A DNA stretch of 64,000 nt from Bradyrhizobium sp. Ash2021 (GTDB taxonomy: Bacteria; Pseudomonadota; Alphaproteobacteria; Rhizobiales; Xanthobacteraceae): contig NZ_CP100604.1 of the NCBI RefSeq assembly GCF_031202265.1, positions 9,096,501-9,160,500 of the forward strand. The letters are read 5' to 3'. This document shows, piece by piece, positions 5,714 to 15,026 of the stretch. The translations under genes were made by a program, and so were the position numbers. The notes under the pieces were generated by a model. That model saw only the letters and a program-made list of their open reading frames with translations. It did no database searches and was not told the origin of the DNA. The first letter of the stretch is position 1. Each line of letters starts with the position of its first letter.

Positions 5714-8700
5714 CTAGAATTGCGTCTCAAGAACCGGCGCCGGCTCGTTCTGCGCGGATACGCGCTCCGACGGCGGGGGATGTTGCGTCAAGTCCACAGC
5801 CTCAGGGGTTGGCCAGCAATCGTCGTGGACAGGGTGGATCCGGAACCACGCCACATAGAGCGCCGGCAGGAACAGGAGCGTCAGCAGCGTGCCGACGATG
5901 ATGCCGCCCATCATCGCGTAGGCCATCGGGCCCCAGAAAATCTCGCGCGCGATCGGAATCAGCGCGAGACTTGCAGCGGCCGCCGTCAGCAGGATCGGCC
6001 GCATGCGATGCTCGGTCGCTTCCACAACGGCATCCCAGGCCGGGCGCCCCTCCTTCCTCAGATCCTCGATCTGCACGATCAGGATCACGGAGTTTCGGAC
6101 CAGAATACCGATCAGTGCCAGGACGCCGAGGATGCCAACGAACCCAAGCGGCGAGCCGCTCGGCAGCATGGCCATGACGACGCCGATCACGGCGAGCGGC
6201 GCGACCGCAAACACCAGAAACAGCCGATGGAAGCTTTGCAGCTGAACCATCAGGACCGTGGCCATGACAAAAAGCATGAGCGGAACGACCGCCACGATCG
6301 GCGCCTGGCTCTTGGCGCTCTCCTCGACGGAGCCACTGATCGCCACAGAATAACCTGACGGCAATTCTTTGGCGAACTCCGCCACCCTCGGCGCCAACTG
6401 GTCCATGATTGTCTTCGGCTGGACGTTGGTGACGACGCCAGCCTTCAGCGTGACCGTAGGAATCCGCGCGCGGCGCCAGATCGTCGGCTGCTCGATTTCG
6501 TAGCGCAGATTGGCCACGGCCCCGAGCGGCACCGACTGCCCGCTGAGCCCGGTTAACTGCAGATCGCGCAGCGTGTCGATCGAGGCGCGCTCCGCCGTCG
6601 TAGCGCGTCCGGTGACATTGACGAGATAGATGCTGTCGCGAACCTGTGTGATCGGGGTGCCCTCGAGCACCGAGTTCACGGCCGTGGCGATGTCTTCCGA
6701 CGTCACGCCGAGCTGGCGCGCCTTGTCCTGGAGAACGTCGACCTTGACGACGCGCGCAGGCTCCATCCAGTCGAACACGACATTGCCGAGACCGGGGTTG
6801 CTCCGGACGATGCCAGCGAGTGCCTGCGAAAGATCTCTGACCTTCGCGATATCTGGTCCGCTCACGCGGTATTGCACGGGACGTCCCACGGGTGGGCCGA
6901 CCTCAAGCAATTTGACGTAGGTGTCGGTGCCTGGAAACGTCTTCCTCAGATATTCCTCGAATTGCGCCTTGACGAGATCGCGCGCCTTTATGCCGCCCCT
7001 GGTCACAACTACTTGCTGGCCAAACCATGCATTGGCCGTCTGCACGTCGAACGACAGCACAAACCGCGGCGCGCCGGTGCCGACATAGGTCGACCAATGC
7101 TCCACAGAGCCATTGCCCTGCAGCTGTTCGCGCTCGAAGCGCGCCATCTGCGCATTGGTGTCTGCAATCGAGGCGTTTTGCGGCAGATTCCAGTCGATCA
7201 CCAGCTCGTCACGATCCGACGAGGGAAAGAACTGCTGCTGCACGAAAGTCATGCCGAACAACGCGACGAAGAAGGCCGCAACCGTCACGCCGACGGTGAT
7301 CCAACGGTGATGCATGCAGAAGAGCAGCAGGCGGGCGAACATCTGCGCCAGCCGGCCCTTCTCCTCATGGTGGCCCTTCATCTTTGCGGGCAGAATGGTG
7401 ACGCCGAGCAGCGGCGTGAACAGCACCGCGACGATCCACGACACGATCAGAGAGACCGCAATCACCACGAACAGGGTGAAGGTAAATTCGCCGGCATTAC
7501 TGCTGTTCAGCCCAATCGGGATGAAGCCTGCGACGGTGACCAGCGTGCCCGTCAGCATGGGAAATGCGGTCGACGTATAGACGTGGGTCGCCGCCTTTTC
7601 GAGGGGATCTCCGACCTCCAGTCGGGCCACCATCATTTCGACGGCAATCATGGCGTCATCGACCAGAAGGCCGAGCGCGATGATCAATGCGCCCAGCGAA
7701 ATTCTCTGCAATGAAATGCCGGCATAGTTCATCACCACGAAGGTAATGGCGAGAACCAGCGGGATCGCAATTGCGACGACAAGCCCGGCGCGCATGCCCA
7801 AGCTGAGAAAGCTGATGGCGAGAACAATAACCACGGCCTCAAACAGCGCTTCGGTGAAGCCCGACACCGCATGCTCGACGACGACCGGCTGATCGGCGAC
7901 CAGGTGAACGCCGACGCCGATCGGGAGGTCGGCAATGACCTTCGTCATTTGCTCTTTCAGCGCCTCGCCGAAGTGAAGCAGGTTTGCGCCGGACTTCATG
8001 CCGATGGCAAGCCCGATTGCAGGCTGGCCGTTGTACCTGAACAAGGTCTTGGCCGGATCGGCATAACCGCGCGTGATGGTCGCGACGTCAGTGAGCGGAA
8101 AGAAGCGGTCGTTGATCCGGAGATTGACCGCGTTCAGGCTTGCCTCCGACGTGAACCGGCCGTTCACCCGCACACTGATTCGCTCGGGCCCGTCCTGGAA
8201 CACCCCGGACGGGGCGACCGCGTTTTGTCCCTGCAGGGAGGCCATGATCGAGTGGACGTCGAGGCCAAGGGCCGCGATCTTCCGGGTGGAGAATTCGAGG
8301 TAAATCACCTCGTCCTGCGTACCCAGAATGTCGACCTTACCCACATCCGGCACGGTCAAGACCTTGGCACGGACGTCCTCGACCTCGTCGCGCAGCTGAC
8401 GCTGGGTCAAGCCGTCGCTGGTGAAGGCGTAGATGTTACCGAACACGTCGCCGAAGCGATCGTTGAAGCCCGGCCCGATGACGCCTTGCGGGAATTCGCC
8501 CTTGATATCCGCGATCATGTTGCGGACGCGGACCCAGGTCGGCTTGACGTCAGCCGCCTTCGTCGCATCCCGCAGATAGACGAATACGGTGGTCTGGCCC
8601 GCGACCGTCACGCTCTTGGTGTAGTCGAGCGATTCCAGCTCCTCGAGCTTCTTTTCGATCCTGTCGGTGACCTGGCGCGTCATTTCTTCGGGCGATGCGC

Positions 8701-8866
8701 CCGGCCACTGCGCCTGGATCACCATGGTCTTGATGGTGAAGTCGGGATCCTCCTGACGACCAAGCTGAAGGTAGGCAAAGAGGCCCGCCGCCATGAAGGC
8801 GATCATGAAATACCAGACGAGCGAACGATGGCGGAGCGCCCAGTCGGAAAGGTTGAATGACTTCAT
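5714..8866 (-). CDS. RND efflux transporter permease (AcrB/HAE1-like superfamily)
   Basis: A 1050-residue inner-membrane proton antiporter, normal length for the family. The first membrane helix is at about residues 15-35, followed by a large periplasmic loop with PGASPEEM and ELESLDYTKS. Membrane helices 2-6 span about residues 335-490, with the proton-relay pair Asp403-Asp404 in GLLVDDAMIAVEMM. A second periplasmic loop and the last six helices end near IIVGTLLTLLFLPALYVAWF. The short acidic/Pro tail is cytoplasmic. The ATG overlaps the stop of the upstream adaptor by four bases (ATGA), so the two are translationally coupled. Sequence features fit drug or biocide export rather than the heavy-metal subgroup, but the substrate is not determinable. 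No outer-membrane channel gene is nearby, so a TolC-type protein must be supplied elsewhere. Confidence 0.93.
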   Translation of the reverse strand: MKSFNLSDWALRHRSLVWYFMIAFMAAGLFAYLQLGRQEDPDFTIKTMVIQAQWPGASPEEMTRQVTDRIEKKLEELESLDYTKSVTVAGQTTVFVYLRDATKAADVKPTWVRVRNMIADIKGEFPQGVIGPGFNDRFGDVFGNIYAFTSDGLTQRQLRDEVEDVRAKVLTVPDVGKVDILGTQDEVIYLEFSTRKIAALGLDVHSIMASLQGQNAVAPSGVFQDGPERISVRVNGRFTSEASLNAVNLRINDRFFPLTDVATITRGYADPAKTLFRYNGQPAIGLAIGMKSGANLLHFGEALKEQMTKVIADLPIGVGVHLVADQPVVVEHAVSGFTEALFEAVVIVLAISFLSLGMRAGLVVAIAIPLVLAITFVVMNYAGISLQRISLGALIIALGLLVDDAMIAVEMMVARLEVGDPLEKAATHVYTSTAFPMLTGTLVTVAGFIPIGLNSSNAGEFTFTLFVVIAVSLIVSWIVAVLFTPLLGVTILPAKMKGHHEEKGRLAQMFARLLLFCMHHRWITVGVTVAAFFVALFGMTFVQQQFFPSSDRDELVIDWNLPQNASIADTNAQMARFEREQLQGNGSVEHWSTYVGTGAPRFVLSFDVQTANAWFGQQVVVTRGGIKARDLVKAQFEEYLRKTFPGTDTYVKLLEVGPPVGRPVQYRVSGPDIAKVRDLSQALAGIVRSNPGLGNVVFDWMEPARVVKVDVLQDKARQLGVTSEDIATAVNSVLEGTPITQVRDSIYLVNVTGRATTAERASIDTLRDLQLTGLSGQSVPLGAVANLRYEIEQPTIWRRARIPTVTLKAGVVTNVQPKTIMDQLAPRVAEFAKELPSGYSVAISGSVEESAKSQAPIVAVVPLMLFVMATVLMVQLQSFHRLFLVFAVAPLAVIGVVMAMLPSGSPLGFVGILGVLALIGILVRNSVILIVQIEDLRKEGRPAWDAVVEATEHRMRPILLTAAAASLALIPIAREIFWGPMAYAMMGGIIVGTLLTLLFLPALYVAWFRIHPVHDDCWPTPEAVDLTQHPPPSERVSAQNEPAPVLETQF

Positions 8867-9939
8867 GGCGTCTGATCCTGTTCGATACGGACTTGCTGTC
8901 CTGGCTTGAGGCTGTGGATTCCGGCGGTCACGATGCGCACGCCGGGATAAAGCCCATCGGAGACGCGGGCACCTGCCGGGTCACCGGCGAGAGCGACCTT
9001 GTGCAGCGATACGGTGCTCGTAGGCTGATCCACGACCCAGACGAAATTTGCGCCATCCTTGGCGAGCACCGCTGAGGCGGGAACGCGCAATCTCGGACTT
9101 TGCGCTATTCCGAGCTTCGCCGTAACGGTCGTGCCCAAGCGGAAGCTTTCAGGGGGATTGTTCAGGGCGATGCGGACTCGCCGTAGGCGCGTCATGGGAT
9201 CTGCCTGCGGGGCGATCTCGCGAATCTTGCCTTCGACCTGAATCGCAGGGAGCAGCTGTAGGCCGACCCTGAATGGCAGGTCAATTTCAAGCGGCACCGG
9301 GAAATCCTCCCCGATATCGACTACCGCCTCCCTGATATCGGGCCTTGCAACTGTCACGACATTTTGGCCGGGAGAGACCACCTGTCCGACTTCTGCGCCC
9401 ACCGAAGTGACGACGCCGGCGAAATCGACCTTGATCTGGGCATAGCCCCGTTGCTCGATGGCCTTGATCAAGTTCGCCTGTGCATGCGCCACCGACGCGG
9501 CGGCGCCGGCCCGCGCCTGCTCGGCACTGTCCAGTGTCTGCTTTGTGGTAGCGTCAGTTGTGATAAGAGTTCGCTGCCGCTCCTCCGTCGCCGTTGCGGT
9601 CGCCAACTGCGCTTCGGCCTTCGTCAGCTCAGCCCTGGCAGAGCGTACCGCAAGCTCCAGAGCCGTGGGATCGATGACACCGACAGTTTGTCCTTCGCTG
9701 ACGAGGTCACCAACGGAGACCGGACGGCCGGTCAGACGTCCCAAGACGCGGAACGCGAGATCGGTCTTGTATTGCGGCTCAACGACGCCGACGGCGACGA
9801 TGCCGTCCGTGCGGCTCGGCTCAAGGACCATCGACAGTACGGGTCGTACAGGCTCGGGTGCTTTCGCGTCCTGCTGACATCCAGCCAGCACCAGCGCGGA
9901 TACAAACGTGCCGGTCGCAATCATCGTGCGCCTCTTCAT
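8863..9939 (-). CDS. RND efflux periplasmic adaptor subunit (second of two)
   Basis: A 358-residue membrane-fusion lipoprotein that bridges the RND permease and the outer-membrane channel. The lipobox LVLAGC gives acylated Cys21. The biotinyl-lipoyl-like half-motifs (GRLTGRPVSVGDLVSEGQTVGVIDP and GVVTSVGAEVGQVVSPG) flank an Ala-rich coiled-coil hairpin at about residues 90-170, then come beta-barrel and membrane-proximal domains. It overlaps its neighbours by four bases at both ends. A second adaptor is encoded immediately upstream. Two different adaptors with one permease suggests a hetero-adaptor complex or recent duplication. Confidence 0.92.
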   Translation of the reverse strand: MKRRTMIATGTFVSALVLAGCQQDAKAPEPVRPVLSMVLEPSRTDGIVAVGVVEPQYKTDLAFRVLGRLTGRPVSVGDLVSEGQTVGVIDPTALELAVRSARAELTKAEAQLATATATEERQRTLITTDATTKQTLDSAEQARAGAAASVAHAQANLIKAIEQRGYAQIKVDFAGVVTSVGAEVGQVVSPGQNVVTVARPDIREAVVDIGEDFPVPLEIDLPFRVGLQLLPAIQVEGKIREIAPQADPMTRLRRVRIALNNPPESFRLGTTVTAKLGIAQSPRLRVPASAVLAKDGANFVWVVDQPTSTVSLHKVALAGDPAGARVSDGLYPGVRIVTAGIHSLKPGQQVRIEQDQTP

Positions 9940-11069
9940 GACGGGTCTTCCTCATATGTCACGGCCTGCCCAACGCTCAGCAGCTTGCCGCCATCGATCA
10001 CGACGCGCTCGCCCGGCTTGAGGCCCGCCTTGATCAGCACTTCACGGGCTTCATAACCGCCGATCGTCACCGGCTTGAGCGCAGCCGTTTTAGTCGCCGG
10101 ATCGACGGTCCAAACCGCGGGCTTCGATCCTGCCGCCGCCAATGCACTCCAGGGCAATGCGATCTGCTGCTGGGCTTTCGATTTGACGGTTCCTGCAATG
10201 GCGCTTCCAAGCGTCATCGCTGCCGATGGATCCTGGATGGCAACCTTGACGCGGATGGTCGCGCGCTTCGCGTCAATCGCGGGCGAGACTTCCCTGACAT
10301 GCCCGCTCGCCGTCGCGCCTGCGTCGGAGACAAGCACCAGCGATACGCGGCTATCGTCGAGATCGCCAAACAAGAGGGATTCGTAGATGTCGAACACGGC
10401 ATCCCGCTCCCCGTCCTGCGCCAGGGAGAAAACCGGCTGCGCGGCCTGTACGACCTGGCCGACTTCCAAATTGCGCGCGGTGACCACGCCTGCCGCTTCG
10501 GCGCGCAGCGCGGTATAACCAAGCGCGTCTTTCGACGTTCCGAGCTCCGCTTTTGCTGCTTCAAGGGCACCTTCTGCGGTTCGCAATCCCTCCTGCGCCT
10601 GATCGTAGACCGTCCGCGTGGTGAAACCGCTGGCGATCAGCGCCTTTTGCCGTTCGAAGGTCGCCCTGGCCACGCGTAGCTGAGATTCTCCGGCCAGCAC
10701 CGCCGCAGTTGCGGCATCGACGTCGGCCTGCTGCTCGGCGGGATCAAGCAAAGCCAGGACTTCGCCAGCCTGGACGCGGGCGCCAACATCGATATAGCGC
10801 GCGACCACACGTCCGCTGACGCGGAACGAGAGGTCGGCGCGAAACCGGGCCTGGATTTCGCCAGTGAGGGTGACGGAGGCTTGTCGGTCGCGCGGCTGCA
10901 CGATCTCCGTGCGCACGATAGCGGCGTGTGTGATGGGAGCAGCGGCATGATCATTGCAGCCACTCAGCGCAAGTGCGACAAGCGCCACCACGAGGCTACC
11001 GGGCCGCCTCAGCTTGCATTTGCGAGCAGTTTTATCGATTTCGGTCTGGTTCGCAGCATGATGGTTCAT
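9936..11069 (-). CDS. RND efflux periplasmic adaptor subunit (first of two)
   Basis: A 377-residue membrane-fusion protein. A long N-terminal tail leads to the hydrophobic stretch SLVVALVALALSGC, giving a lipobox with Cys38. Lipoyl half-motifs are GRVVARYIDVGARVQAGEVLALLDP and GVVTARNLEVGQVVQAAQP, with an Ala/Glu/Gln-rich hairpin between them. I chose the ATG at 11069 because it overlaps the stop of the kinase-like gene by ATGA, like the other junctions of this operon. A frame extension upstream lies antisense-free but within the kinase gene and lacks support. It shares only moderate similarity with the adaptor at 8863-9939, so it is not a very recent copy. Confidence 0.9.
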   Translation of the reverse strand: MNHHAANQTEIDKTARKCKLRRPGSLVVALVALALSGCNDHAAAPITHAAIVRTEIVQPRDRQASVTLTGEIQARFRADLSFRVSGRVVARYIDVGARVQAGEVLALLDPAEQQADVDAATAAVLAGESQLRVARATFERQKALIASGFTTRTVYDQAQEGLRTAEGALEAAKAELGTSKDALGYTALRAEAAGVVTARNLEVGQVVQAAQPVFSLAQDGERDAVFDIYESLLFGDLDDSRVSLVLVSDAGATASGHVREVSPAIDAKRATIRVKVAIQDPSAAMTLGSAIAGTVKSKAQQQIALPWSALAAAGSKPAVWTVDPATKTAALKPVTIGGYEAREVLIKAGLKPGERVVIDGGKLLSVGQAVTYEEDPS

Positions 11070-11977
11070 AGCAGGTCCATGCGGTGGCGGGGTGACAACA
11101 ACTCGCCCAGCACATCCGCCGCTGGACGCACAGAAACCGGTTGGGCTTCGCGAGCCGGATTTTGATCCGGTCGTGTTGCAACGGGGCGGCTGTTCCAATC
11201 AGGAGAGCTTGCTCCTGTGTAAAGCGTCGCGGCGTTGGACGGGCGGACGCTTAGCCGGCGAGGCGACCGTATGATGCGACGCTTCGCGGTCGCACAGTTC
11301 GCCTGCCGCTCACGCTCTGACAGCGGAAACGAGAGAACGACGGACGTGAATTCATTGCCGGAGCCGTGCTCGACCCGGCCGCGCAGATCCTTGGCAAGGT
11401 CGTTGCTGAGCCGAAGTCCGCGCCCAGCGGCGCCCCGTGCCGACCGCGACCCATTGTCCAGGACGACGCAATTCACCAGCCCGCCGGTCCGTGTCAATTT
11501 GACCCTGATCTCTCCGGACCGCGCCTCGAAGCACGCATACTTCGCGGCATTGGTTACGAGCCCGTGAACGATCAATCCGAGCCGTCGGCATCGCTCTGAT
11601 TCGAGCGGAAGAGATTCGGTCGCGAGGACCAGCCGGATATTCATTCGATCCAGCAACGAACGGCGCATGGCGCACCCCATCATGCGGATGGATGTCGCGG
11701 CGTCGATCAGCGCCTTGCCCTTGGGCATTGCGAGCGCCTGTTGCACATCGGCATAACCATGCAACAGGTCGACCACGTCGCTTAAGGCACGCTTGGCCTC
11801 ACGCCCCTCGACCCGGACGGCCGCGGCCGAGACCAGGTTGATCGCGGAGGCGAGCCCACTATTGATCCGGTGATTCAATTCGCGCAGCAGAATGCCCTGC
11901 TCCACAATTGGCGAATCCGGCCTGCACACAGTCACGACGATCTCCTCAGGTTGTGCCGGCGAGCGGCGGCCGTTCAT
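11066..11977 (-). CDS. Sensor-histidine-kinase-like protein without an input domain
   Basis: A 303-residue protein of the HisKA_2/HWE type. The phosphoacceptor box is LLRELNHRINSGLASAI with His36, the N-box is GLIVHGLVTNAAKYA with Asn143, and G-box-like motifs are VVLDNGS and GRGLRLSNDLAKDLRG. There is no PAS, GAF or membrane segment, and no response-regulator gene is adjacent. About 75 C-terminal residues after LSFPLSERERQ are Arg/Pro-rich and look non-conserved, as if an original stop had been lost. It is the first gene of the RND operon and overlaps the adaptor gene by ATGA. A TTG at 12004 is an alternative start. Role inferred: signal input for pump expression, or a kinase captured by the operon. 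Confidence 0.8.
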   Translation of the reverse strand: MNGRRSPAQPEEIVVTVCRPDSPIVEQGILLRELNHRINSGLASAINLVSAAAVRVEGREAKRALSDVVDLLHGYADVQQALAMPKGKALIDAATSIRMMGCAMRRSLLDRMNIRLVLATESLPLESERCRRLGLIVHGLVTNAAKYACFEARSGEIRVKLTRTGGLVNCVVLDNGSRSARGAAGRGLRLSNDLAKDLRGRVEHGSGNEFTSVVLSFPLSERERQANCATAKRRIIRSPRRLSVRPSNAATLYTGASSPDWNSRPVATRPDQNPAREAQPVSVRPAADVLGELLSPRHRMDLL

Positions 11978-12021
11978 CCGGATGAGCTGTCGCAGGCCCT
12001 GCAATCCAAGCCAGTCTGCGA

Positions 12022-12049
12022 CCTCATAAATACACTATACGGTATATTT
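12022..12049. promoter_or_regulatory. Probable TetR operator, copy 1
   Basis: Inverted repeat with arms AAATACAC and GTATATTT around a six-base centre, between the leftward RND operon and the rightward tetR gene. The 28-base block recurs in reverse orientation at 13831-13858 with 26 of 28 bases identical. Size, symmetry and position fit the operator of the adjacent TetR regulator; that assignment is inference. Confidence 0.65.
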
Positions 12050-12124
12050 TCTTTTTATTGCATTTTCTTTCTGAGCATGTCAAGCGGGATCTATGCGCGC
12101 ACAAACTTGAGCTTGGAGACGATG

Positions 12125-12787
12125 ATGGCGAAGGACAAAAGCCCGAAACGTGGCAGGCCGCCAAAGGACCTTGCCAGCGACGCCCAGGCGCGGATTCTCG
12201 ATGCAGCCCAGCAGCTCTTTCTCGAGAAAGGATTTCGGAGTGCCAGCATCGACGATATCTCCGAGTTGGCCCCTGCGAGCAAACCGACCATCTATGCCTA
12301 TTTCCCCGGCAAGGAAGCGCTGTTCGTAGCTGTTGTGGCCCGGACCATCAACGGATTGACAGATTTCGCGGGGTTCACGCCGGCAGGCCGCACCATCCAG
12401 GAAAAGCTCACCAATCTCGGCATCGAGATCGTGGAGAGATTCGTCGAGGACACGTTGGACCTCACGCGCGCGACGATCGCCGAGTCGCGGCGATTTCCCG
12501 AGTTAAGCCGAAATGTTCACGACGCGGCGCGCGACCGCGCGGCTGGGGCAGTTTCTCAACTCTTGAACGAGGCAACGCAGAGGATCGCGCGCTCATCAAA
12601 AGGGCCATTCAGCGCAAAGCGGAGCGTTGCGACCGCGCAGATGTTCATGGATCTCATTCTGCTTCCGATGCTTATGAGATCTCTGATGGGCGAGGAACTG
12701 AAAGATCTCAGAAAAGAGCTGCCGACGTTCTTGCACGAACGGGTCAATTTCTTTCTCGCGGCTTGCGAGGCAGACTGGAGGCCCTGA
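12125..12787 (+). CDS. TetR/AcrR family transcriptional regulator
   Basis: A 220-residue repressor. The N-terminal Lys/Arg-rich arm (KSPKRGRPPK) leads to the helix-turn-helix at about residues 22-68: ILDAAQQLFLEKGFRSASID then SKPTIYAYFPGKEALF. The C-terminal ligand-binding domain is all helical. The start is set by GGAG six bases before the ATG at 12125; an ATG one codon upstream is too close. The frame is open for a further 85 codons upstream across the promoter region, which is not credible protein. It is divergent from the RND operon with an AT-rich palindrome between them, the usual layout for a repressor of an efflux pump that responds to the pump's substrate. Confidence 0.9.
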   Translation: MAKDKSPKRGRPPKDLASDAQARILDAAQQLFLEKGFRSASIDDISELAPASKPTIYAYFPGKEALFVAVVARTINGLTDFAGFTPAGRTIQEKLTNLGIEIVERFVEDTLDLTRATIAESRRFPELSRNVHDAARDRAAGAVSQLLNEATQRIARSSKGPFSAKRSVATAQMFMDLILLPMLMRSLMGEELKDLRKELPTFLHERVNFFLAACEADWRP

Positions 12788-12957
12788 ATCAGCCCACCCA
12801 GACCCCGCTCGCTATCCTTGCGCCCCGGCTTTGGCACATAACTCGGCGGCCAGGTCGATCGACTGACCCCACGGCAGATGATGCAGCGCGCTTGCGCAGA
12901 AATCCATCATCTCGTCAAAAGTGGGCCTAACGGTAGCCGCCTTGATCCGCAACGACC

Positions 12958-13395
12958 TCAGCGAGATGGGGTCGAATGCAATTCACGTCGGCAGGCTTCG
13001 CCGAAGTGACGCAAGGGATCCATTTCCTCCATGAACTCAGGTAAATCGACGAGTTCGCGGTTCGGCGACAGGAAGGTTTCGATGATCACGCGCCCTGCCC
13101 GCTCCGCCGCTTGAACCACTTGATCGCTGGACAGAATCCTCATCCGCCCGATGAGCGCATACAGATTGACCAGTTGCGGAATCTCGGATTTGTCGCTGAC
13201 GAGCGCGTCGGCGTAGAGTCGGGAGGCTTCCTCGATGAAGCTTCGATAGAGCCGCTCGCGCTTGGAGATCGACCGGGCATAGTGGCGCTCGCGAAGCCTG
13301 CGGCGCCGACTCACCCATCCTGTTACGATCGTAGAGATCGCTCCGAAGGCCGAGCCTCCGAACGCGGCGAAAGCGGGAGCATACATCGTGTTCAT
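12958..13395 (-). CDS. Hypothetical membrane-anchored protein
   Basis: A 145-residue protein with one N-terminal membrane segment (about residues 3-30, rich in Ala, Gly, Phe and Ile), followed by a strongly basic stretch VSRRRRLRERHYARSISKRE and a helical cytoplasmic part. By the positive-inside rule the C-terminal part is cytoplasmic. The start at 13395 has AGGA eight bases upstream; a start five codons earlier would place that AGGA inside the coding region. It lies four bases after the stop of the Cys-rich secreted protein gene, so the two form an operon. I do not recognise a named family. Confidence 0.65.
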   Translation of the reverse strand: MNTMYAPAFAAFGGSAFGAISTIVTGWVSRRRRLRERHYARSISKRERLYRSFIEEASRLYADALVSDKSEIPQLVNLYALIGRMRILSSDQVVQAAERAGRVIIETFLSPNRELVDLPEFMEEMDPLRHFGEACRRELHSTPSR

Positions 13396-13399
13396 GCGA

Positions 13400-13687
13400 T
13401 CATTCCTCATCTCTTGCGCCGCGGTACCGGAGCGATCCTATGGTCTTGACCGAAGCAGTTCCCGCAGCGTGATCGAAGACGGCTCTGCAAGCATCGCTGA
13501 GGTCTGACTTTCTTTGCCTGAGACAAGCCTCCACATTCTCGGCGTCAGGGATGTAGCTGGCGCATAGCCGGAAGGCATCAGGCGCACATGCGGCCCTCTG
13601 CTCGGGAGTGCCGCGGTTCTCCTGCGCTAAGACAGTGCCGTTGGCGAACAAAGCTGCCAGCATGACGACCAATGTGTACTTGAACAT
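13400..13687 (-). CDS. Secreted cysteine-rich-repeat protein
   Basis: A 95-residue exported protein. The signal peptide MFKYTLVVMLAALFANG ends at VLA-QE. The mature part has four cysteines (C34, C42, C55, C67) in the pattern ACAPDAFRLC then ACLRQRKSDLSDACRAVF, as in the bacterial proteins related to the Cys-rich GLG1 repeat. These are periplasmic and of unknown function. The start is supported by AAGGGA six bases before the ATG; an in-frame start 25 codons upstream is rejected because it would bury the signal peptide. It is the first gene of a two-gene leftward unit and is divergent from the small membrane-protein genes at 13865. Confidence 0.75.
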   Translation of the reverse strand: MFKYTLVVMLAALFANGTVLAQENRGTPEQRAACAPDAFRLCASYIPDAENVEACLRQRKSDLSDACRAVFDHAAGTASVKTIGSLRYRGARDEE

Positions 13688-13799
13688 ATCGAATCCCTTC
13701 TGCAGTTGAGGCACCCGCGTTCGCCAGGGGAGCGCAGCCTTACGCTCCAAAGTCCCCGCCATTTGAACAGCCCGAACACGCGCTTGTGAGTCTTCGCTC

Positions 13800-13828
13800 T
13801 TGACACACCCCGGGGATCGGGATGTATA
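13800..13828 (+). promoter_or_regulatory. Sigma-70-type promoter for the small membrane-protein genes
   Basis: A perfect -35 box TTGACA at 13800-13805 is followed after 17 bases by TGTATA at 13823-13828. The predicted start site would fall inside the operator copy at 13831-13858, a placement suited to repression. Confidence 0.55.
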
Positions 13829-13830
13829 TG

Positions 13831-13858
13831 AAATATACGGTATAGTATATTTATGAGG
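13831..13858. promoter_or_regulatory. Probable TetR operator, copy 2
   Basis: Arms AAATATAC and GTATATTT (a perfect 8-base inverted repeat on the reverse strand) around a six-base centre. It is the inverted copy of the block at 12022-12049, with two differences in 28 bases. It sits just downstream of a TTGACA/TGTATA promoter and immediately before the ribosome binding site of the 13865 gene. Confidence 0.65.
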
Positions 13859-13864
13859 TGAAAA

Positions 13865-14074
13865 ATGTCAACACTTTTGTGGTCGGTTGCAAAAGAAAAT
13901 CCGGGGCCGGGGCTTGCACTCGCATTCCTGAACCTGGTCGTGGCTCTGTTCCTCGTGGGCCTGAGCTTGCTGCTGGGCGTTACGATATCCTTGCTTGCCG
14001 GGCTGCACGCGTTCGTCGATCGAGAGGCGGTGCCGATCACGCAACAAGCCCAGCGCCGGAGGGTCACTCCATGA
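13865..14074 (+). CDS. Small membrane protein, first of a coupled pair
   Basis: A 69-residue protein dominated by one or two hydrophobic helices (about residues 15-50: GLALAFLNLVVALFLVGL and onward), with a basic tail ending QRRRVTP. AGGTG sits seven bases before the ATG. A competing frame from 13858 overlaps it, but that frame has a poor composition for its first 70 codons. Its stop overlaps the start of the next small gene (ATGA). Transcription would start from the promoter at 13800-13828 and be blocked by the likely TetR site. It may be a pump-associated small protein; function unknown. Confidence 0.6.
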   Translation: MSTLLWSVAKENPGPGLALAFLNLVVALFLVGLSLLLGVTISLLAGLHAFVDREAVPITQQAQRRRVTP

Positions 14075-14208
14075 CGTCAGCCCTTCTCCTAGCTCGCGAT
14101 TGCATCATCTATTCGGTCAGGATCTGGCTCGTGCCCGTTGAATGCGCATTCAACGTAGTTGAGTCGGAGCTCGTGCGCAGAGGCGTCCAGCTTTACCCGG
14201 TCGAATAG
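14071..14208 (+). CDS. Small membrane-associated protein, second of a coupled pair
   Basis: A 45-residue frame starting MTSALLLARDCIIYSVRIWL and ending RRGVQLYPVE. It overlaps the upstream stop codon by four bases (ATGA), and GGAGG lies nine bases before its ATG inside the upstream gene, the standard arrangement for translational coupling. The N-terminal 30 residues are amphipathic to hydrophobic. No family recognised. The good ribosome binding site and the overlap are the evidence that it is real. Confidence 0.45.
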   Translation: MTSALLLARDCIIYSVRIWLVPVECAFNVVESELVRRGVQLYPVE

Positions 14209-14423: not shown

Positions 14424-15026
14424 ATGTCGAAGAAGCGATTGCTAGCAATTGTCGTTTTGTCCGCCACGCTTGCCGCTACGGGCGCGAAAGCCGATGTCAC
14501 CCACTCACCTTTGGACGCTGCAAATAGAGGCGTAGCCGCGCGAGGCGATGCCGAGGAGGTCGTGCTTCGTCGCTTGCTCGAGCAATTTCGCGCAATAAAA
14601 ATGTCGCTCAGTCAGGCGGTAGCGATCGCCGAGCATTTACATAGCGGTTCAAGGACCGCGGACGTTAGCTTTGAGATATCCGGTCCGGCCATTTATCGGG
14701 TGCGGACGGTAAGAAATGAGCGAATTTGGGAGAATGTCATTGATGCGAACACCGGAAGCGTTACAGAAAAAGAAATTTCGTCATCGCTGAGGGAACTAGA
14801 CCGACAGGATCTGGGTAACGTCATTGCTCTGAAGTCAGTTGAGCAAGAGCTGTCGGACGCCGTACGCATCGCCGAGAAAGCTGCCGGGGGAAGCGCCCTT
14901 GCCGGAGGTCTGATGAAGCAGGATGGCAAACTCAACTTCGTGGTCGTCATCGCCAGTGGTGATCACTTGAAGGAGGTCATGCTCGAACCGCCCAGGGTCG
15001 GCAGGGAAAAGTCAGCTCGCCAATAG
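14424..15026 (+). CDS. PepSY-domain periplasmic protein
   Basis: A 200-residue exported protein. The signal peptide MSKKRLLAIVVLSATLAATG is followed by AKA-D. Two PepSY-like units are visible: SLSQAVAIAEHL through VDANTG-like IDANTGSVTEKE (about residues 60-125), and ELSDAVRIAEKAAGGSA through VVVIASGDHLKEVMLEP (about 145-190). PepSY domains occur in protease propeptides and in redox or metal-linked envelope proteins. The ATG at 14424 is chosen because the signal peptide begins there. It is separated from the tiny membrane-protein genes by about 215 bases with no coding signal, so it may be the last gene of that unit. Confidence 0.75.
   Translation: MSKKRLLAIVVLSATLAATGAKADVTHSPLDAANRGVAARGDAEEVVLRRLLEQFRAIKMSLSQAVAIAEHLHSGSRTADVSFEISGPAIYRVRTVRNERIWENVIDANTGSVTEKEISSSLRELDRQDLGNVIALKSVEQELSDAVRIAEKAAGGSALAGGLMKQDGKLNFVVVIASGDHLKEVMLEPPRVGREKSARQ

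Follow-up and report, generated by a model that had tools for sequence, protein, structure and literature searches.

The 64,000-nucleotide stretch of the Bradyrhizobium sp. Ash2021 genome analysed here (the window) carries a tetR gene (12122–12787, forward strand) whose product, the proposed repressor, matches both TetR_N (PF00440, 56.2 bits against a cut-off of 24) and the AefR-like C-terminal domain TetR_C_7 (PF14246, 33.6 bits against a cut-off of 22). The pump operon lies to its left on the reverse strand. Its first gene encodes a sensorless histidine kinase of the HWE/HisKA_2 type (11066–11938; HATPase_c_2 scored above the Pfam cut-off and HisKA_2 below it), and it is followed by two RND periplasmic adaptors (9936–11069 and 8863–9939, both TIGR01730) and the RND permease (5714–8866, ACR_tran). 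The kinase gene is present at 54 of the 58 S1 loci described below. To the right of tetR, the reverse strand encodes U150 (12958–13410), a protein of 150 aa, and CYS (13400–13687), a small cysteine-containing putative exported protein with no Pfam family. The forward strand then carries S1 (13865–14074, 69 aa), S2 (14071–14208, 45 aa), which begins within the stop codon of S1, and a gene for a PepSY-domain protein (14424–15026). Between tetR and U150 (12788–12957), the second tetR gene present in most relatives has been cut down to a C-terminal remnant (12884–12949, reverse strand; bll7024 type), with about 515 nt missing as compared to L076, L113 and L124.

The initial annotation had drawn attention to two 28-base blocks (12022–12049 and 13831–13858) as near-identical inverted copies. 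These copies are real, and the match is in fact somewhat longer, as 27 of 29 nt are complementary between 12021–12049 and 13831–13859. The conserved element, however, comprises about 22 nt rather than 28, since the terminal ATGAGG of the block forms the Shine-Dalgarno region of S1 and was seen behind only one of 58 tetR-side sites, namely the window's own. We refer to the two predicted elements as operator A (12028–12049, reverse strand, directed toward the RND operon, AAATATACCGTATAGTGTATTT) and operator B (13831–13852, forward strand, directed toward S1, AAATATACGGTATAGTATATTT). The outer arms, AAATATAC-N6-GTATATTT, are perfect in operator B and contain one mismatch in operator A. The 8-6-8 repeat described earlier is present in both blocks, but it may not be the symmetry read by the protein: an inner 8-1-8 palindrome of the type AACTATAC-S-GTATAGTT also lies within the sites and scores similarly, the mean number of matching pairs out of 8 being 6.3 (inner) versus 5.95 (outer) on the S1 side and 6.0 versus 5.95 on the tetR side (20 distinct sites each). 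A perfect inner palindrome is seen at the site in L182.

The palindrome pattern had two matches in the window at up to three mismatches, as compared to 0.01 expected, and none of 100 shuffled sequences contained two. In the entire genome (9.70 Mb, two contigs), nine places were found at up to three mismatches versus four for the backwards pattern that served as control; the two window sites were the only ones with 0–1 mismatch, one place had two mismatches and six places had three. In eight relatives the core pattern was matched perfectly 30 times, and 29 of these matches were located in a copy of the locus or beside a copy of the tetR gene. These genome-wide searches of the own genome and of relatives argue strongly against the blocks being a common dispersed repeat, a reservation that accompanied the first description of the pair.

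Conservation was examined in 195 genomes of the genus, sampled from a larger group, with S1 matches taken at E ≤ 0.001 and TetR matches at E ≤ 1e-40 and at least 60% identity. There were 60 S1 matches in all, 58 of which, counting that of the window, align from their first residue, and 63 tetR copies with at least 60% identity, 60 examined first and three later. Operator B precedes every one of the 58 S1 copies that align from the start, and in 57 of them it ends 12 nt before the start codon. Operator A (at least 16 of 22 matches) is present at 57 of the 58 S1 loci and precedes 58 of the first 60 tetR copies; a good site was missing before the truncated tetR in L097 and before the second copy in L112. 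The three later copies have a site at the start in L182 and L183 and none in L184. Many operator positions are invariant among the relatives, and the orientation of the sites, toward S1 or toward the kinase-RND operon, is kept. It should be underlined that all these rows represent related sequences from a single genus, and the 58 rows therefore do not amount to 58 independent events. S1 was found in 54 of the 195 genomes and the TetR in 55; all 54 are among the 55, and no searched genome of the genus has S1 without this TetR. One genome, G025, has retained the TetR, the RND genes and the operators at A and at CYS while S1 is absent, which shows that S1 is not a constant member of the set. Beyond the genus, the TetR was found at E ≤ 1e-50 in four of 297 genomes of the order, all four of which belong to the same genus. 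A contig scan for S1 found 15 loci; the record titles name Bradyrhizobium for 14 of them and a Tardiphaga MAG for the remaining one (L201), in which the S1 relative has 66% identity.

Both operators are accompanied by promoter-like elements. On the RND side, a −35 TTGACA is located at 12078–12083 (reverse strand); its spacing from the site is identical in 54 of the 58 rows and altered in three, and one row lacks the box. The corresponding −10 is poor, with no clear hexamer. The TTGACA-N17-TGTATA promoter claimed for the small genes is as described, with the −35 at 13800–13805 and the −10 at 13823–13828 (forward strand), directly left of operator B. TTGAC is found at most 34 nt upstream of the site in all 58 rows (at the same distance in 48), and either TGTATATG or TTTATATG stands immediately left of operator B in 50 of them. 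Operator B had been correctly placed after the S1 promoter, but a predicted opposing promoter for CYS-U150, located in the same block and conserved among the relatives, had been missed. Its −35 TTGACA (13866–13871, reverse strand) lies over the start codon of S1 and covers S1 bases 2–7 in all 58 copies, whereas its −10 TATACT (13844–13849, reverse strand; spacer 16) lies inside operator B and conforms to TAxAxT in 57 of 58. A consensus scan returned two promoter-like sites in the region, versus 0.8 expected, with TTGACA-N16-TATACT among them. The opposing promoter thus has its −35 where S1 begins and its −10 within the operator, and the S1 −10 stands to the left of the operator, so that the two predicted promoters share part of their sequence and are oriented against each other. 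With regard to the coding sequence under the −35 box, all 58 S1 copies have TCA as their second codon, which encodes serine, while TCA accounts for 7 of the 253 other serine codons within the first 60 codons of S1 and for 15 of 163 in seven neighbouring genes of the window. The fixed TCA therefore suggests a constraint beyond the protein, although some of this bias may reflect a preference for A/T-rich sequence at translation starts. As judged by these positions, operator B is predicted to serve the opposing CYS-U150 promoter as well.

Both small genes had been taken to encode membrane proteins. This description fits S1, whose best 19-residue hydropathy is 2.7, but S2 is not clearly membrane-spanning (1.54). 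The predicted structure of S1 is one long helix (residues 14–67) with pLDDT values of 91–98 at residues 21–50 (overall mean 79.3, pTM 0.45), and hydropathy and model together predict that the protein spans the membrane once. S1 and S2 appear coding-like but moderately constrained, as judged by median pN/pS values of 0.55 and 0.45, respectively, compared to 0.21 for tetR, and conserved residues of S1 are found also beyond its start. S2 was not found at 10 of the 58 S1 loci. In the protein collection S1 has 229 relatives, with hypothetical or uncharacterized names among the 120 listed, and S2 has 57, for which the names shown are likewise hypothetical or uncharacterized. Comparison of S1 with proteins of solved structure and with phage proteins gave no convincing homologue; for S2 the homology search covered Pfam, NCBIfam and PHROGs only.

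The locus has a counterpart in B. diazoefficiens USDA110, which we take relative G187 to be, given that published qPCR primer sites fall in the expected genes. Fifteen of 17 primer pairs match the G187 stretch, 14 of them exactly and one with a single mismatch, while bll7017 and bll7018 lie outside the stretch. This mapping assigns bll7025 to U150, blr7026 to the PepSY gene and blr7027 to a patatin gene behind a third operator. The BjG30 locus, which extends over 7,729,680–7,748,456 in G187, has the same gene order as the window (bll7019–bll7021 for the RND genes, bll7022 for the kinase-like gene, blr7023 for tetR, bll7025 and blr7026) and the same operators. Based on sequence, the window TetR, which is 75% identical to blr7023, is probably its orthologue, and the kinase, U150 and PepSY genes similarly correspond to bll7022, bll7025 and blr7026. 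BdtR, reportedly the subject of work by Han et al. in 2020, is said to be a TetR-like regulator in genistein efflux, and we presume that it is blr7023, the orthologue of the window TetR. At up to one mismatch the core pattern occurs at three places only in G187 (7738378, 7740708 and 7742609), all within BjG30. One of these sites precedes the kinase-RND and tetR genes, one separates CYS-U150 from S1, and one is found ahead of the patatin-decarboxylase-dehydrogenase genes; the S1-S2 stretch of G187 begins at 7740739. The two loci differ in that BjG30 contains a patatin/acetoacetate decarboxylase/hydroxybutyrate dehydrogenase operon with the third operator, both of which are lacking at the window locus (no patatin match of at least 300 bits in the window), and a second tetR of the bll7024 type, in place of which the window has only the remnant. 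The third operator is a variable feature, with a site at most 500 nt upstream in 12 of the 34 S1 loci that have patatin. In L068 (11964–11990; G012), the patatin-decarboxylase-dehydrogenase genes flank the RND genes on the opposite side, still with an operator upstream.

According to PMC4070704, the BjG30 locus is induced by 5-hydroxyflavonoids in USDA110, and it has been named as a flavonoid-responsive pump in two further papers (PMC5029519, PMC5030252). The qPCR data in PMC4070704 give a 24.6- to 213.9-fold induction by genistein for bll7017–bll7033 with five exceptions, bll7017, blr7026, blr7031, bll7032 and bll7033, which were uninduced. Combining these data with the primer and site mapping places the induced genes of the G187 stretch in operator-headed units, whereas blr7026, which has no operator directly upstream, is not in such a unit. 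Since blr7026 is the only assayed gene downstream of S1-S2 on that strand before the next operator and was uninduced in USDA110, the S1 transcript presumably ends early or is not strongly induced, and the PepSY gene of the window is probably outside the regulon. The initial impression that the system is undescribed holds in part: the pump and its TetR are known from the genistein-induced BjG30 (PMC4070704), but S1, S2 and the overlapping promoters are seemingly unstudied. The two small genes have no gene number in the list of the BjG30 paper (PMC4070704), and in the literature on blr7023, BjG30 and BdtR we found neither an account of these nameless genes or the overlapping promoters nor a measurement of S1/S2 induction.

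Our preferred reading is that both blocks are operators of the TetR encoded at 12122–12787, which corresponds to blr7023 of the BjG30 locus inducible by genistein; to this reading we assign a probability of about 0.83. From the observed conservation, positions, promoter-like elements, co-occurrence and overlap with published induced genes, we infer for Ash2021 the binding of TetR, its ligand, the activity of the promoters, and the induction and role of S1 and S2, as follows. When no inducer is present, a TetR dimer (or two) would occupy each operator. Operator A, adjoining tetR, would act from a position immediately behind the TTGACA promoter region that precedes the kinase-MFP-MFP-RND operon, and operator B from within a block of about 70 bp common to the two opposed, overlapping promoters, the rightward one leading to S1-S2 and the leftward one to CYS-U150. 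A repressor bound at this single operator could close both promoters, and a polymerase on one of them would be expected to exclude a polymerase on the other. By extension from USDA110, genistein or a similar 5-hydroxyflavonoid of plant origin would then release the repressor and switch the units on. The earlier proposal of a pump and mini-proteins under one repressor keeps its core here, a conserved TetR-linked operator pair, but the predicted regulon includes CYS-U150 as well and only one of the mini-proteins, S1, is clearly a membrane protein.

An unlikely alternative, though the one that survives best, is that operator B belongs to the CYS-U150 promoter alone, with S1 and S2 as passengers or weakly expressed genes and the S1 start kept mainly as the overlap with the −35 box. 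Such a situation would agree with G025, where the TetR and operators occur with no S1, with the absence of S2 at 10 of 58 S1 loci, and with the strong induction of bll7025 (U150) in USDA110 as opposed to the uninduced downstream blr7026 (PMC4070704). It does not account for the conservation of the S1 promoter itself (TTGAC in 58 of 58, TGTATATG or TTTATATG in 50 of 58), nor for the conserved S1 residues outside the start and the median pN/pS below 1 of both small genes. Distinctly less probable is that the first tetR is incidental and the operators are bound by some other regulator, such as the second TetR (bll7024 type). A second tetR was indeed detected (at least 100 bits) at 49 of the 58 S1 loci, and the bll7024-type tetR is induced in USDA110 (PMC4070704). 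However, no match of at least 100 bits was obtained at the other nine loci, which include the window with its remnant and two (L089 and L117) that hold fragments, and at these nine operator B is kept in all and operator A in eight. The persistence of the operators at loci without an intact second tetR favours the first tetR as the regulator, and S1 and the first tetR are found together in 54 of 55 genomes. It is highly improbable that the blocks are a small dispersed repeat or nothing more than promoter elements rich in A+T: operator B does hold the −10 of the opposing promoter and directly follows that of S1, but two unrelated promoters carry the same block in fixed orientation with near-invariant letters, and close copies are restricted to the two window sites in the own genome (0–1 mismatch) and to BjG30 in USDA110 (G187).

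The locus is the orthologue of a known flavonoid-induced pump locus, and its operator pair is well supported; what is new are the small genes and the promoters that overlap and share an operator. A finding on gene expression in a soybean symbiont, the switching-on of a locus by genistein within minutes, is thereby turned into a defined, testable operator set, and overlooked small genes join the candidate flavonoid response. The block at S1 also appears to be a clear case of one operator common to two opposed promoters, with a −35 box lying across a start codon. A TetR gene beside a genistein-responsive RND pump occurs in the same genus also as FrrA-FreCAB (blr4322, bll4319–4321), which is mentioned in PMC4070704. 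That system is a different locus; the copy at G187:4774806, assumed to be FrrA, is 30% identical to the window TetR.

What S1 might do is a more tentative matter. It is possible, though on balance doubtful, that S1 and S2 together form a small-protein module which flavonoids induce and which tunes the running RND pump, or the envelope, being co-made with the pump through the same repressor, and that CYS-U150 and S1-S2 transcription compete each time the repressor leaves operator B. A known small protein of an RND pump is AcrZ, which is co-regulated with its pump. S1 resembles it in being a small protein with a single predicted transmembrane helix, as judged by hydropathy and the structure model, but without a detected sequence relation: a profile search against solved structures, a library that presumably includes AcrZ chains, gave five weak matches with E values of 0.16 or worse, none of them named AcrZ. 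In Escherichia coli AcrZ is a small membrane protein associated with the RND pump (PMC7267776), and if S1 modulates the pump, it would represent a rhizobial parallel to AcrZ without homology.

A PWM trained on the sites of this locus did not reveal a larger regulon in the own genome, in which one other strong site was found. This site (G000:C1:8167469–8167490, AACTATACTGTATAGTT, PWM score 34.5; the same as L008 1501–1522 and L179 9470–9491) adjoins a tetR-like ORF, for which the alignment covers the N-terminal part only; nearby are a small ORF that contains cysteines and a patatin gene, which is 66% identical to blr7027. A weaker site at 3057475 has no recognised gene behind it. In 13 stretches examined later, which contain TetR paralogues of less than 60% identity or lack the locus, the sites were weaker or absent except in L179 and L193. 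The site in L193 (position 8132; G107:C61:13132–13153), a strong operator copy with a score of 41.7 and none of the known locus genes nearby, is the one exception (G107:C61:13134) among the 30 perfect core-pattern matches of the eight relatives. Finally, L104 and L105 (G003 and G077) contain operator-like palindromes in which the outer arms are kept and the 6-base centre is free; the TetR encoded in their vicinity is a different one, with about 50% identity in the helix-turn-helix, which may point to a sister regulon.
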